64,000 nucleotides of DNA, from assembly GCA_002917775.1 (NCBI GenBank), contig KZ627158.1:220578-284577 (forward strand). The letters run 5' to 3'. This stretch comes from Glaciozyma antarctica PI12. Lineage: Eukaryota > Basidiomycota > Microbotryomycetes > Kriegeriales > Camptobasidiaceae. The first letter of the stretch is position 1. Each line of letters begins with the position of its first letter. A program made the position numbers and the translations under genes. Below, piece by piece: positions 26,529 through 35,600 of the stretch. The notes under the pieces were generated by a model. It made no database searches. It was given only the letters and a program-made list of their open reading frames with translations, and had not been told where the DNA came from.

Positions 26529-28835
26529 CTAATCGGAATCGGTGAAGAAGTACTTTCCTGCGGCCTTCTGTTCCTTGTCCAGCAGGGAGTTGAGCTTGTT
26601 GATCCGGGGTCGGAAGTTAGTCGGCTGTCGCTCTTCATCAGTTCCAGTTCCGCGGGCAGGGAGAGGGAGGAACGCACGTCTCGGCGGAAAGTGATTTCCA
26701 GCGACTTGAGGAACTTGTTCATGCCAGTGAGGAGGGATTCGGGTCTGTGAGAAGCGTTAGTGGCGCGCGAGGAGGGCGGAGGAGGGGACGTACGGTGATG
26801 CGAAAGCTTCGACGGAGGGGGTTCCCTCGTAGACGATCACGCGGTCCGAGAGGTAGGTAGCCATGACGATATCGTGCTCTACGACGAAGGCGGTCTTCTT
26901 CGCGTGGAGGATGAATCTGTGTTCCGGATCGCATCAGTTCGCTGATGCGGAGTAGGAGGAAGGATGGACGAACCGCTTGATGACACGACTGGCGATGATA
27001 CGCTGCTCGGAATCGAGGTACGCACTCGGCTCGTCGATAAGGTAGATATCGGCCGGCTTTCCCAAGCACAGCACGATAGCGACACGCTGAAGCTCTCCTC
27101 CCGACAGCGTAGTAACATACTGATCCATGATGATCTCGAGCGCCATGGGCTTGATGACGTCCGTGTTGAACTGAGGGTGCATGAACGCCGCGCGCATCTG
27201 CTTGAGGAGGAGCTCCCGAACCGTTCCGGGGAACTTAGGCGCGATCGTCTGAGGCTTCATAGAGATGTTGAGGTGCTGCTCGTCGTCCTCGTTGTCGGGC
27301 TTGATCTTTCCGGCGAGGAGCTTGACGAACGTCGTCTTGCCCGTTCCGTTCTCTCCGAGCATGACGATGATCTCCGAGTCGGTGAAGGATCCTGCTTCGA
27401 CGTTGAGCTTGAAGTTGCCGAGCGTCTTGGTCATCGTGGGGTACTGGTAGCGACGGTTCTTCTCCCCGAGGACCTCCTCCGCCGACTCGGAGATCTTGAA
27501 GTGGAGCGACTCCTCGCGGAAGCGGAGGTTCTCGGTGGGGATTCGCCCGTCGAGGAAGATGTTGATTCCTGAGGGTGCGACGGGTAAGTCTGGCTCCAGA
27601 GAGGGAGAGAGGATAAACGTACCTTCTCGGACCGAGAACGGCATGGTAACGACACCGTACATCGAGGGCATCCCGTACAGGCAGCAGATGAAATCCGACA
27701 GGTAGTCGAGGACGGAGAGATCGTGCTCGACGGCGATAACGTAGACTTCGGGACCGAGGAGCGAGCGAATGATCCTAGCCGCGTTAAGACGCTGCTTGAC
27801 ATCGAGGTACGAGGAGGGCTCGTCGAACATGTAGCTGCGCGAGAAGAGCTCTCGTCAGCTCCGATCCTCCTCACTTTCCGCGAAACGCAACTCACATATC
27901 CGCATTCTGCACACACGACATTCCGATCGCAAACCGCTGGAGCTCTCCTCCACTGAGCTGAGTGACCTCGCGCTCCAGAACGACGTGAAGGTCGAGGGCG
28001 GTAAGGATGTCCTCGATATTGTTGCGCTCGTTCTTGGCGTTAAGCATCTGGCTGACGGTCTGCTTGCCCTTGATCGCGCGGGGGATGTGGTCGACGTATT
28101 GGGGCTTGATGAGCGGCTTGAGGTTGTCCTCGAGCACCTTGGTGAAGTAGTTCTGGAGCTCGGAGCCTCGGAAGTACTTGAGAATCTCCTGCCAATCCGG
28201 GGGGTCCTGTCGCTCGGTCGTCAGCTGGCGCTCCTCGACGGGAAGATAAAAGTCGCACCTCGTACCGTCCGAGGTTGGGCTTCAGCTTTCCAGAGAGAAT
28301 CTTGAGCGCCGTACTCTTTCCGATACCGTTCGTGCCGACGAGTCCGAGGACCTGGCCGGGGCGAGGAGTCGGTAACCGATGTAGCTTGAAGGAGTTGGGG
28401 CCGTAGCGGTGGGTGACTTGGGTCTCGAGGTTGGTGGGAAGGTTGACGATGTGGATAGCTTCGAAGGGGCACCTGCGAGCGCGTCGTTAGCTCTGCGAGG
28501 GGAGGGAAGGAGGGAAGACGCACTTCTTAGGGCAGATACCGCATCCGATGCAGAGCTCCTCCGAGATGAACGCGATCTTCTTCGTAGGGTCCACCTCAAT
28601 ACAGAGCTTTCCTAATCGCACGAACCTGCGTTAGCTCCCTGCTCCTCCCTTCCTCTAGAAGCCGCCACACGCACCCATTCGCACGACAGGGCACGACTTC
28701 TTGCACTCCTGACGGCACTTCTTGGGCTTGCACCGATCAGGGTTGATCAGTGCGATCCTGCAAAGCTGCGTGGTTAGCTAGAGCTCGTGGGGCGAAGGGA
28801 GCAGGGTAGGCGCACCTGGTGAGCTTGTCGGACAT
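26529..28835 (-). CDS. RLI1: Ribosome-recycling ATPase Rli1/ABCE1
   Basis: Iron-sulfur ABC protein that splits post-termination ribosomes and aids initiation and ribosome export; essential. Start [16 protein letters not shown] at 28835. Two ferredoxin-like clusters: [16 protein letters not shown] with a later Cys in KLCIE, and [13 protein letters not shown]. The first ATPase has [31 protein letters not shown] and [13 protein letters not shown]; the hinge follows; the second ATPase has [46 protein letters not shown] and [14 protein letters not shown]. Ends [11 protein letters not shown] at 26531-26529. Family length about 605 residues, matched here. Short introns throughout; no breaks. It is divergent from the SET gene across 730 bases, which may be a shared promoter (an attgg/CCAAT box near 28980). 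Confidence 0.96.
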
Positions 28836-29564: not shown

Positions 29565-32182
29565 ATGGCGACAGAAGTACCAGCCGACACCACAGCTCAG
29601 CTCACAGCCGAAGCTCTTCTTGCTCACTCGCCCCCTCAAACAACAAAGAAGCCCCACCCAGCCCCTTCCGCCACGTCCGACGACGACCACTCCCTCCCCG
29701 CCACTCACACGAACAAGAAAGCCAAGCTCGACAACCCCTCCCTCCCCATCGACCTCGCCAACCCTATCCCGACCCCCTCGTCCACCTCGGACGGCGGGCC
29801 CAAGGAAGCCGTCGTCAACCCCGGCAGCGGAGGAGGGCGGGCTAGCCATCCTCGCCGTGGAGTCAAGGACGATTTCGGTGGAGACGGCAAGGAGTTCCTC
29901 TCGCAGGGACTGTACTGGAGCCCTGGGATGAGCAGGCCCTCGGTCGTAATCACCAAGACGGGGTCTTCCGCCCGGGAGGACAAAGCGGCGCGCAAGGACG
30001 ACGAGGTTGGATGGAAGGACGCGGCGAACTCGGCTGTACTTCCGCTGCCGCTGTACCATGGCGAGACGCTGCTCGAGGAGGAGAGGGCGTTCAAGCTTCC
30101 GTTCGACCTCGCCCCCGAGTGGGTCGACGACATTCGCGAGGTTTCTGTCGAGGTCGAGGAGGGGGAGAAGGAGGCGATGGCGAGGGAGAAGAGTAGGAAG
30201 CCTGAGCCGTATGGCCACCTGTCGAGGAGTACGTCCTTCCTCACTGTCGCGCCGACGCGGACCACCCAGCTGACTTCCACCTTCTTTTCGCACAGACATC
30301 TACGTCGACCGCAAGCCCGACAAGGCCGAAAACCTCGCCATCTGCGCGTGCGTTCCTCCCAAGGGCGACGAGGAAGCCTGCGGCGAGTCGTGCATCAACC
30401 GGTCCGTCCTTAATCTCTCGTCTCGGGCGGTAACCTCGCTGATTCGACCGACGACGACAGGATGATGCAATACTCTTGCGACCCCAAGACGTGCCCTACT
30501 GGCGACAGGTGCACCAACAAGCCTCTCGGGCTCCAGGAGGGCATTCCGGAGGGCAAGAACGGTCTTCGTGTCATCTGGGTACGTCGTCGCTCCTTCCTTC
30601 ACCGTCCTCCCTCGCTCATCTCCCTCCAACGCAGACTGGAAACCGCGGCTTTGGTCTCAAGACGATGGTCCCGATCAAGGCGGGGCAGTACGTGACGCAG
30701 TACCTCGGAGAGGTTTGTTCCTTCCTCTCCTCTCGCTCGCTCGCTGCCTTCTCACACGACGATGGTTCGCAGATCATCACGCGCGACGAGAGCTACCGTC
30801 GTGTTCTGACGACGTACAAGGACTCCAAGTCGTACTACTTCCTCGACTACGACGGACACGAAGTCATCGACGCCGTGCGTTCTTCCCTTCCTTCCTCCGA
30901 GCGCGCAAGCTGATACCGAGCTCGATAGGGACAACGCGGGAACTTCTCCCGCTTCATCAACCACTCATGTGGACCTAACGTCACCGTCGTGAGCTGGAGA
31001 TTCGCCAACGTCGACGAGTACCAGGTGCGTTCCTCGTCGCTTCTTCGTTCGTGCCGCTTTCGCGAAGCTGATGAATGAGTATAGATGGGAATCTTTGCGA
31101 TCAACGATATCGAAGCTGGCACCGAGTTGACCTGTACGTTTCCTCGCTCATCCTTCGCCCCGTCCCTTCGCCCATTCCTCCCCGCGTCCTCCCCATCCTG
31201 TCCGCGTCCTCCCACCCCGCCCCTCCCGCTCCCCACTAACGCACTTCCACACAGACGACTACGGCTGGCAAGACTTCTCCTCCCTCCAAGCCCCCACCAC
31301 CGCCGACGCAGACTCGCTCGACCACCGCCAAGCCTGTTTCTGCGGTGCTCCTCCCTGCACGGGCTGGCTAGGCGGAAAGAAGGACAAGCCTCTCTCCGAC
31401 TCTCCCGTCGGCGGAAGTGGCAAGTACCGCGCGACTGGAAAAGCTGCTGCGGGGAAGAGCTTTGGAGGAGTTCCCGGGAGCAGGTTTGGTGCGGGTAGGA
31501 AGGTCGTCGTCGTGCCGGCGTTGAGGAAGGCGGGAGGGGGGAAGAAGGGGAGTGAGAGTGAGGGGGATGAGCCGAAGGGACCTACGATGGAGGCGAGTTG
31601 TAAGAAGTGTAGGGAGAGGAAGGTGCGTTCCCTTTCTTCTTCGTGCTGGTGCGGGAACTGATGAGCGCGTTTGGTAGGTCAAGTGCCCAAGGTGAGCTCC
31701 TGCGATCCACTTCGTCGTCGCCGTCGTCGCTAACCCCGTCCACAGGAACCTCGGATCCTGCTCTCGGTCCGTCCCCTCCCTTCTCCTCTGTGCTTCACTA
31801 ACTCCCTCGACAGCTGCACCCGCCGCGGAGACGTATGCGTGTACGACGACGAAGTCCGCACTGTCGAGCCCAAGCCTCGTGCGGAGCGTAAGCTCGCTGC
31901 GGCGAACGAGGAGATGCTCATGGAGACGAGTTGCAAGAGGTGTAGGGAGAGGAGGGTTAAGTGCCCCAGGTACGTCTTTTTTTCTCCGTTTCGTCTTGAG
32001 GAGGAGAGGCTGATGAGTGCGAGTAGGAATAAGGGGACTTGCGATAGGTGCGTTCGTTTTTGATGTGCGGTTGGGGCGGGGCTAATGGTTTGTGACGCAG
32101 GTGCGCGAAGAGGAGGGATCACTGTGAGTATGATAACGAGCCGAGGAAGCTCGAGGAGATGGAGGTCGATGAGGATGAGTAG
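29565..32182 (+). CDS. Ash1-type SET histone methyltransferase with two C-terminal Zn2Cys6 clusters
   Basis: Probable histone H3K36 methyltransferase, nuclear. Domains in order: disordered N-terminus with NKKAKL; AWS (CACVPPKGDEEACGESCINR, then YSCDPKTCPTGDRCTNKPLG); SET (TGNRGFGLKTMVPIKAGQYV, YFLDYDGHEVIDA, GNFSRFINHSCGPN, GTELTYDYGW), where NHSCGPN and ELTYDY are the cofactor and catalytic motifs; post-SET ACFCGAPPCTGWLGGKK. Then, unusually, two fungal binuclear zinc clusters: CKKCRERKVKCPRNLGSCSR/CTRRGDVC and CKRCRERRVKCPRNKGTCDR/CAKRRDHC. Both fit C-x2-C-x6-C-x6-C-x2-C-x6-C exactly and are separated by about 35 residues. In both repeats introns fall after CPR and after C-S/D-R, in phase 2, so they arose by tandem exon duplication. 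Acidic end EEMEVDEDE, TAG 32180-32182. All splices join in frame. The SET resembles ASH1L more than Set2. Confidence 0.9.
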
Positions 32183-32609: not shown

Positions 32610-35600
32610 ATGGCCGCGCAATCCAAGCTGCGCGCTCTCTCCTCAGATGCAACAGGGCATTACCTCCGTAACCAGCCCAAGTACCAACGACTCCTCATGG
32701 CCTCTTTCACCGTCTACGCGATCCTCAATACCTACCGCGGGCTGAACCCTAAGCGCAAGCCGAAGAAGGCGGGAGTGCAGGAGGGAGGGAAGGAGGTGTT
32801 GGTGGAGGAGCCGAGCGCGGGGGGCAAGGGAGGGAGGAAGAGGAAGAGGGCTCCGAGGGTTGAGGTGAGTTGGCGTGCCTGCGATAGAGTGCGTTGAGAG
32901 GGGGGAGGAGATGGGAGGTGGCAGCGGGGACGGTGGCGTGCCAGGAGGCACGGGGAGGGAGCCCCGCGAGGAGGGTTGCTGCTGCTCCCTCTCCCGTCCC
33001 CGACCAAGAGCTGGCTTTACCGCGAGCTAGTGCTCCTCGGCTTTACGAGCCACGTCAACCACAGGAGCGCAGGAACTGACCCTCTCTCCGCCGAGAGGTC
33101 GACGCAGTGTTCTACGAGCGCCTCTCGCGCATCCTCCGCATCGTGATCCCCTCCGTCCGCTCCAAAGAAGCTTCCCTCCTCGCCCTCCACTCGCTCTTCC
33201 TCGTCCTCCGCACCCTCCTCTCCCTCTACGTCGCCTCTCTCGACGGGTCGATCGTCTCGGCTCTCGTACGCGCTCAGCCTCGTCAGTTCTTGTGGCGCAT
33301 CTTCCTCTGGATGGCGGTGGCCGTGCCTGCGACCTACACCAACTCGATGCTTACGTACATGCAGAGCAAGCTTGGTGAGTTTGAGTGCGAGTTTGGCGCG
33401 GAAAGGAGCTGATGACTTGCGAACAGCGATCGCGTACCGAACTCGTTTGACGAAGCAGGTTCATGAGATGTACCTCGAGGACACGACTTTCTACGCTCTT
33501 GGTGCGCACTGGCGCTTTCTTTCTGAGAGCTGGAGGCTCACTCGAGTGACTTTACACAGGAAACCTCGACGACCGAATCAAGAACGCTGATCAGCTCATC
33601 ACCGTCGATATCAACAAGTTCTCCAACTCTCTCGCCGAGATCTAGTGCGTTCACCTTATCCAGTCTTTATGGATCTGAAGCTAACGTCTCGCGACAGCTC
33701 CAACATCGCCAAGCCCATCGTGCGTTCTGTCATTCCTCAGATTCGGAGCGAACCTAACTTCTCCCTCGCAGCTCGACGTGATCATCTACAACTACCAGCT
33801 TTCTCGCAACGTCGGCGCCGAAGGTCTCATCGGTCTCACCATTGTCGTTCAGCTTTCCGCCGCTCTCCGTGCGTCCGCACACGCTTATTCTTTCGAAGCT
33901 GCCGACTGACCTCGCTCCTCGCAGTCAAATTCGCCACTCCCCCCTTCGGTCGCTACGCCGCCGAAGAAGCTCGCCTCGAAGGAGAATTCCGCTTCTCCCA
34001 CTCTCGTCTCCTCGAGAACGCCGAAGAGATCGCCTTGTACCGCGGAGCGATGGTCGAGAAGAACATCATCGAGCGGTACTACTTCTCCCTCATCAAGCAC
34101 GTCAACCGCACGTTCCGCATGCGCATGTTCCATGGACTTATCGAGGAGGGAATCATCAAGTGGGCTTGGGGAAGTCTCGGACTCCTCATTTGTGCGATTC
34201 CCGTCTTCTTCAAGATGCCTGGCGTGACGGGACCGGTGGACTTTGGAAGTCGGACGGAGGGTGCGTCGCCTGGCTCTCCTGCTTTTGAAAGTGACTGACG
34301 AACGAAGGATAGGCTTCGTGACGAACCGACGACTGCTACTTTCCTCCTCGGACGCGCTGGGACGACTCATGTCGACGTACCGCGAACTGAGCGAACTCAG
34401 TGGGTACACGCAACGAGTCTCGGAGCTGCTCGATACGATGGAGGAGATCAAGGAGGGCAAGTTCCAGAAGAAGCTCGTGAGCTCAGCGGGGACGGAGGAG
34501 AATGCTCGAGGTGCGTCGGTTTCTTGCGATGGGGGGCTAAAGCTGATGGGTGGACGCAGTGCTGCAAGGGCGAGGCAAGTTTGTTCATTCGGACGACGAG
34601 ATCATCTTCGACAAGGTCCCAATCGTGACTCCCAACGGCGATATCCTCATCAAGTCGCTCAGCTTTTACGTCAAGCCCGGGGTACGTCTTCTCCTCCCCT
34701 CTCACGTGTTGTGACTGACCTCGCTCCGCAGAACCATCTCCTCATCGTCGGCGGCAATGGCACCGGCAAATCGAGTCTCTTCCGTATCCTTGGAGGACTC
34801 TGGCCCATCTACGGTTCGTCCGTTCCCGCTCCTCGATGGTACCGCAGATGCTGATCGCTCGCAGGCGGAACTGTCACCAAGCCTCCAGCGAGCGAGTTCA
34901 CCTACATTCCTCAACGTCCCTACCTCTCCCTCGGCACCTTGCGCGACCAGATCATCTACCCCCACAACCGCTCGCAGATGATCGAGCGTACGTCCCTCTC
35001 CACTCCACGGCCCTTCTCGCAGTGCTGACCCTAAGAACGACAGGTGGAGTGACGGACGCCGACCTGCTCCGCATCCTGTCCATCCTGGAGATTGACAACA
35101 TCGTCGAGCGTGAAGGCGGATGGGACGTGACGAGGGAATGGCGTGACGCTCTCAGCGGAGGAGACAAGCAGCGTATCGCGATGGCCAGGCTGTTCTACCA
35201 CTGCCCCAAGGTCCGTTTTCCCCCTTTGCTGAATTGAGGAGAAGCTGATGAGCGGTGCAGTATGCGATTTTGGACGAGTGCACGAGCGCGGTGACGCTGG
35301 CGATTGAGAAGACGTTCTATGACCATGCGACTGAGTTGGGAATCACCCTCCTCACCGTCTCGCACCGACCTTCGCTGTGGAAGTACCACAAGTTCATCCT
35401 CCAGGTTCGTCTTTCGCTACCCCTCGCTTAATCTCGCTGATTCGAACGTCGCGCAGTACAACGGCCAAGGAGGGTACTCGTTCTGCCCTCTTGATGCTGA
35501 GAAGCGGTTGGCGCTGCAGGAGGAGAAGCAGAGTCTCGAGGCCAAGCTGTTGGAGGTACCGCAGTTGCAGGCGAAGTTGGAGGAGATGAACCGCGAGCGA

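Follow-up and report, generated by a model that had tools for sequence, protein, structure and literature searches.

A predicted Ash1-type histone methyltransferase joined to a C-terminal double Zn2Cys6 cluster

According to the available part of PMC9692433, fungal Ash1-like proteins carry AWS and SET domains and are without the AT-hooks and further motifs of Drosophila ASH1, so the premise of the preliminary description of this locus, that Ash1/Set2 enzymes usually reach chromatin through PHD, BAH, bromo or SRI domains, needs this one change. For Neurospora ASH1, which has an AT-hook, the way in which the enzyme is directed is stated as open in the accessible sections of PMC6251624. In Zymoseptoria, targeting of Ash1 has been tied to H4K20me3 and Eaf3, and Eaf3 is required for Ash1 activity (PMC10553808, available text). 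The protein described here resembles these fungal Ash1 enzymes, including the Microbotryomycetes orthologues, in its AWS-SET-postSET order, in the presence of a separate Set2, in its pre-AWS segment and in its catalytic motifs, but it differs from them in carrying zinc clusters.

The usual Gal4-type transcription factor has an N-terminal cluster followed by a Fungal_trans region, and the present protein is not built in this way. Its clusters share with those factors the cysteine spacing, a basic segment that separates the second cysteine from the third and the intron sites of a further zinc-cluster place in the same genome (C13:160687), but they form a tandem pair at the C-terminal end of an enzyme, and Fungal_trans is missing. 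Among the Pleurotus zinc-cluster proteins, as far as the accessible text of PMC7295025 goes, Fungal_trans occurs in 43 of 66 and four clusters are C-terminal, so such a position is uncommon but known. One of these proteins, PoZCP55, likewise has two C-terminal zinc clusters on a non-classical regulator; in that case, however, the clusters are placed on septin domains and the protein is a gene model only (same portion of PMC7295025). In the partly available literature, PoZCP55 is the nearest architecture that we met.

A fusion of SET or Ash1 with Zn2Cys6 was undescribed in the titles and abstract openings among the matches listed, in which few subscription journals were covered; the preliminary description, too, treated the SET and double Zn2Cys6 pairing as unfamiliar. 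In a survey of fungal transcription factors that includes dual-specificity ones, the whole words 'methyltransferase' and 'tandem' are absent from the main text as available (PMC5415576). Both modules are known, and their pairing, together with the lineage-specific linker, appears new to us. PRDM9 is an animal PR/SET methyltransferase with its own C2H2 finger array, which sets H3K4 and H3K36 marks at recombination sites. It is alike in logic only, as a SET-type methyltransferase with a zinc DNA-binding array of its own, whereas its C2H2 fingers are a DNA-binding fold unrelated to Zn2Cys6.

Gene model and enzyme part

The window, that is, the whole stretch of 64,000 nucleotides that was analysed, belongs to contig C13 of the genome that was searched (19.98 Mb, 18 contigs), which its nearest proteins place with fungi of the Microbotryomycetes type. 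The gene and the features of its enzyme part are as follows.

29565..32182, + strand: whole gene of the Ash1-type methyltransferase with C-terminal double Zn2Cys6 (splice model, intron features)
30036..30297, + strand: pre-AWS segment, residues 158-222, aligning with the N-terminal part of ASH1L chain 6ine_A (PDB sequence alignment)
30370..30527, + strand: AWS domain, residues 247-279, with the intron 30402-30460 within it (Pfam)
30647..31265, + strand: SET domain, residues 301-408, with NHSC at 367 and ELTYDY at 402 (Pfam, motif positions)
31335..31367, + strand: post-SET motif CFCGAPPCTGW, residues 432-442 (motif, alignment to ASH1L)

The gene model is a prediction in which the exons were joined by hand from splice signals. 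In this splice model, 13 exons with a start codon (ATG) at 29565 and a stop codon (TAG) at 32182 give an open protein of 624 amino acids, and the 12 introns, 47-121 nt long, are all of the GT-AG type, which bears out the earlier claim of one continuous spliced gene. A branch-point-like site (CTRAY), 13-23 nt from the 3' end, is present in ten of the introns and absent from introns 3 and 4; in the zinc-cluster part of the gene all five introns have it.

When the 624-residue protein was compared with Pfam, SET (1.7e-22), AWS (1.2e-13) and Zn_clus (1.1e-14, in two stretches) all passed the curated cut-offs. The order of AWS, SET and post-SET is that of Ash1 (KMT2H), and the catalytic motifs NHSC and ELTYDY are intact. 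The solved structures nearest by sequence were ASH1L (5.3e-45), then NSD3 (5e-44) and, later in the ranking, SETD2 (1.6e-33). The alignment to 6ine_A, an entry which we take to be the MRG15 complex, begins at residue 158, ahead of AWS, and exons of an MRG domain were found in the same genome. The SRI domain, with which Set2/KMT3 binds RNA polymerase II, was not found by Pfam in the 624-residue protein. Across the genome, AWS was met at two places, in the window gene and on contig C15, where the single SRI match lies about 2 kb beyond AWS and points to Set2; these family searches ran exon by exon, and the counts are lower bounds since genes broken by introns could escape. Within these searches the window gene is the only Ash1-type gene found, with a predicted Set2 separate from it on another contig. 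A check for PRC2 in the genome (PF18264) gave no match, and its controls likewise matched nothing.

The first rank of ASH1L, the separate Set2 with its SRI and a Microbotryomycetes clade in the tree of SET regions (support 100/99, described below) together identify the window protein as an Ash1, in agreement with the Ash1-type AWS-SET-postSET of the preliminary description, which the Pfam matches also bear out.

The junction and the zinc clusters

Beyond the post-SET motif the same reading frame runs through a linker into two zinc clusters.

31413..31529, + strand: conserved linker, residues 458-496 (sequence comparison with P0103 and P0104)
31596..31838, + strand: first Zn2Cys6 cluster, residues 519-547, exons 8-11 (Pfam, Cys spacing)
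31692..31813, + strand: introns 9 (31692-31745) and 10 (31767-31813), in cluster 1 (splice model)
31929..32125, + strand: second Zn2Cys6 cluster, residues 578-606, exons 11-13 (Pfam, Cys spacing)
31970..32100, + strand: introns 11 (31970-32026) and 12 (32048-32100), in cluster 2 (splice model)

Neither a stop nor an intron interrupts exon 8 (31255-31622), a single exon that leads from the end of SET over the post-SET motif and the linker to cysteines 1 and 2 of the first cluster. When the 184 residues from post-SET to cluster 2 were used as a query, two matching proteins were obtained among 104 candidates: P0103 (ENA source, 8 member sequences; 73% match over 63% of the query) and P0104 (source lgn; 75% match over 55%). 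Both have diverged from the window and are unspliced frames; each includes the post-SET, the linker and the beginning of cluster 1 and continues with other sequence where the window has intron 8; they end inside cluster 1, and the three-way comparison covers only its first part. The last 30 residues of the linker, KAAAGKSFGGVPGSRFGAGRKVVVVPALRK, are identical in the window, P0103 and P0104, and the same holds for the 17 residues KGPTMEASCKKCRERKV, which include Met516 and the first two cysteines. The spacers between these identical blocks vary among the three both in length and in sequence. Four short pieces of the linker were found in none of the other 102 proteins retrieved. From a further relative, P0002 (ENA), the N-terminal half is available, and this sequence ends earlier.

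The linker at 31413-31529 lies outside any Pfam match and is more conserved than would be expected of a flexible linker.

Since the junction lies within one exon and recurs in frame in P0103 and P0104, the fusion is neither a chance event nor an assembly join, and the pattern of conservation suggests selection on the tail frame as a component of the SET protein. A separate gene starting before cluster 1, the arrangement against which the fusion had to be weighed, was rejected: neither a stop nor an exon boundary lies between the post-SET and cluster 1, and a stand-alone relative was not found. Among the sequences that could be read, the junction is seen in three only. The search for a stand-alone relative of the tail covered proteins of about 101-322 amino acids and gave none among the 104 candidates, exon-11 frames shorter than about 101 amino acids falling outside this range. 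The clusters might still be made mainly as a short protein of their own, either by initiation within the gene at Met516 (ATG at 31587) or from another transcript; the long frame would then be incidental. Met516 precedes cluster 1 in the window, P0103 and P0104 (KGPTMEASCKKC) and has the context acgATGg, both of which would suit such a product, but the identical linker residues lie upstream of it in all three sequences and are contiguous with the post-SET exon, and the uninterrupted exon and the missing stand-alone protein weigh against it in the same way; we regard this reading as improbable.

The tail contains two copies of C-x2-C-x6-C-x6-C-x2-C-x6-C, with cysteines at 520, 523, 530, 537, 540 and 547 and at 579, 582, 589, 596, 599 and 606, and these 12 ligands are the only cysteines beyond residue 450. 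The Zn_clus score in the two stretches is 54.6 bits against a curated cut-off of 21. The two perfect clusters after the post-SET, as first described, are thus confirmed by both the cysteine spacing and the Pfam match. That they are a chance motif, or the product of a wrong splice model or an assembly chimera, is hardly credible: although the exons were joined by hand, the Zn_clus E-value, the branch-point-like sites in all introns of this part and the presence of the same junction in P0103 and P0104, which come from other sources, speak against it.

Both clusters also fit the wider Zn2Cys6 pattern C-x2-C-x6-C-x5-12-C-x2-C-x6-8-C, as given in the available text of PMC7295025. A basic stretch between cysteines 2 and 3 is kept in each (RERKVK and RERRVK), and with their flanks the two clusters have net charges of +4 and +6. 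The loop ahead of the fourth cysteine is without proline; in Zn2Cys6 domains a proline is common there. Most Gal4-type proteins bind DNA as dimers, and by Pfam the 624-residue protein has no Fungal_trans or dimerisation domain. These features and the missing proline weigh against the reading of the tail as a DNA tether, given below. A pattern of the cluster start with one mismatch allowed matched both clusters of the gene and one other place, while its reversed control gave four matches.

Distribution and origin of the tail

In total, 102 homologues of the window protein were retrieved by a search that scored only the 8000 candidates with most words in common, and Zn_clus was present in the precomputed domains of none of them. 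Likewise, a scan of the first 41 homologues for the zinc-cluster pattern gave no match. Among the Microbotryomycetes, 33 clade members were examined; two were uncounted, P0034, which ends before the post-SET, and P0011, whose post-SET was unrecognised by the pattern and which has no zinc motif over its full length. In contrast to the window protein, none of the other 31 has clusters in the tail past the post-SET, where 28 have no cysteine at all and three have one. Many of these tails end in related short basic segments and therefore look like true ends. When residues 505-624 were compared with whole proteins of about 343-1092 amino acids, there was none at E <= 0.001 among 51 candidates.

The tree was built from 48 SET regions, those of the window and of 47 of the 102 homologues; P0002 (unspliced) and P0035-P0038 (short or without the post-SET end) were omitted. 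The well-supported clade has 34 rows: besides the window it holds 33 sequences of Microbotryomycetes, two of which carry the name ASH1L from their source. Within it, Phenoliferia/Meredithblackwellia separates first, followed by Pseudohyphozyma; the window comes next, on a fairly long branch of its own (0.62). Its sister group has 29 rows, namely Leucosporidium, Microbotryomycetes sp. NB124-2 and 27 sequences of Rhodotorula, Rhodosporidiobolus and Sporobolomyces. The position of the window outside these 27 is firmly supported (99/95), the forks adjoining it have moderate support (87/74 and 89/77), and the placement of long rows such as the window is unsure. With relatives that lack clusters on either side of the window in this tree, the simplest account of the distribution would be a gain of the tail in the lineage of the window; given the moderate forks and the long row, the preference for a gain over repeated loss is not firm.

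One of the 102 homologues, P0008 from Pseudohyphozyma bogoriensis, has short-chain-dehydrogenase Pfam entries beside SET and AWS, and may be two neighbouring genes merged in gene calling.

As to the origin of the clusters, 24 of 37 amino acids are identical between the two. Introns 9 and 11, and likewise 10 and 12, have equal positions and phases (2, 2) in the two clusters, while intron 8 occurs in the first cluster only; the matching positions and phases point to a tandem duplication at the level of exons. About 90 kb away on the same contig, at C13:160687 (L024:4240-4490), lies a further Zn2Cys6 cluster with both introns at the sites and phases of the tail clusters and with 25 of 37 amino acids identical to cluster 1 and 21 of 37 to cluster 2. 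It is a single cluster followed by coding-like frames to about L024:7330, which resembles a gene of several exons; three frames of this gene had no Pfam domain above the cut-off. The introns common to both clusters and to this place suggest that the tail probably arose from cluster exons of a transcription factor, captured at the 3' end of Ash1 and then duplicated in tandem.

When the genome was searched with the double-cluster protein, nine matches were obtained, four of them pieces of the gene itself and five elsewhere (E 9.8e-4 to 0.19). Among the latter, C13:160687 has both intron sites and those on C8, C10 and C12 read as clusters of other sequence; the match on C3 looks like chance. A recent donor copy was rejected: compared as DNA with the whole genome, 31255-32182 matched itself alone, and the linker, used as a protein query, did likewise. 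The introns of Zn_clus places were also surveyed with a crude splicing script; 16 of 40 places in the genome were taken, mostly matches that looked cut short, and a solution was obtained for five of the 16, with one intron in each best solution. The misses of the script mean little, since it found cluster 2 but missed cluster 1 and the cluster at C13:160687. One of these five, the cluster L035, has its intron at the site of the first in the two-intron pattern, and the suggestion that the two-intron pattern is special to the tail and C13:160687 is a weak one.

Possible role of the tail in targeting

Taken together, these observations make it fairly probable that the gene encodes an Ash1-type H3K36 methyltransferase with a DNA-tethering tail gained in its lineage, consisting of a basic linker and a double Zn2Cys6 that was probably captured and then duplicated. 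Because the catalytic motifs are intact, MRG exons are present and the pre-AWS segment is kept, ordinary Ash1 chemistry and a partnership with MRG15/Eaf3 are to be expected. The predicted enzyme would methylate H3K36, the ancestral recruitment through partners of the MRG15/Eaf3 type would be retained, and the clusters would act on top of it. Judged from their sequence, the two clusters may bind DNA and so tether the methyltransferase; once bound, they could direct H3K36 methylation to the vicinity of selected sequences or prolong the residence of the enzyme on chromatin. As the preliminary description proposed, the clusters may be sequence-specific, reading paired CGG-type half-sites without a partner, and one paired site may be read by both heads.

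What the tail resembles among solved structures bears on this point. Its comparison with PDB sequences gave 22 matches at E <= 10, the best of which, at 0.00033, is weak. Twelve of them are DNA-binding heads of LAC9, PUT3, GAL4, PPR1 or HAP1/CYP1, all of which are sequence-specific activators; four are Cep3, RSC3 or RSC30, and six are unrelated proteins, one of which, the phycobiliprotein ApcD5, ranks second overall. The main rival to sequence-specific tethering is that the double cluster serves as a general chromatin anchor, which would hold on to DNA or nucleosomes with no useful preference for particular sequences, or contact other proteins, and would replace the anchoring of the AT-hook/BAH type that other Ash1 proteins have. 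The basic character of both clusters is consistent with such an anchor, and RSC3, RSC30 and Cep3 are Zn2Cys6 proteins of chromatin machines; Drosophila ASH1, moreover, needs its AT hooks and BAH for binding to mitotic chromatin (PMC8426247, accessible text). Nevertheless, both clusters have preserved the basic segment that separates cysteines 2 and 3, and the activator heads make up those twelve of the weak PDB matches, so that we hold a general anchor to be rather unlikely.

A bolder version of sequence-specific tethering follows the logic of PRDM9. Two Gal4-type clusters within one molecule would read a paired motif and the enzyme would write H3K36 methylation beside it; facultative chromatin domains of this lineage would then be specified by DNA sequence and not only through pre-existing marks or partners, and the invariant linker would either keep the parts at a distance, as a spacer, or make a contact that couples DNA binding to the release of Ash1 auto-inhibition. 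We put this forward tentatively, as a possibility on the doubtful side. Should the heads bind a motif, shifting that motif and tracking the mark would test Ash1 targeting directly. The fusion suggests that this lineage may steer a histone mark to chosen DNA sequences and, if this is true, fungi can turn the DNA-binding exons of a transcription factor into the targeting arm of a histone-modifying enzyme.

The surroundings of the gene in the window were also inspected. Upstream, on the - strand at 26934-27851, there is an ATPase frame with ABC_tran, presumably RLI1/ABCE1-like; downstream, on the + strand at 33080-34295, there are transporter frames with ABC_membrane_2, which we take to be of the peroxisomal PXA type.
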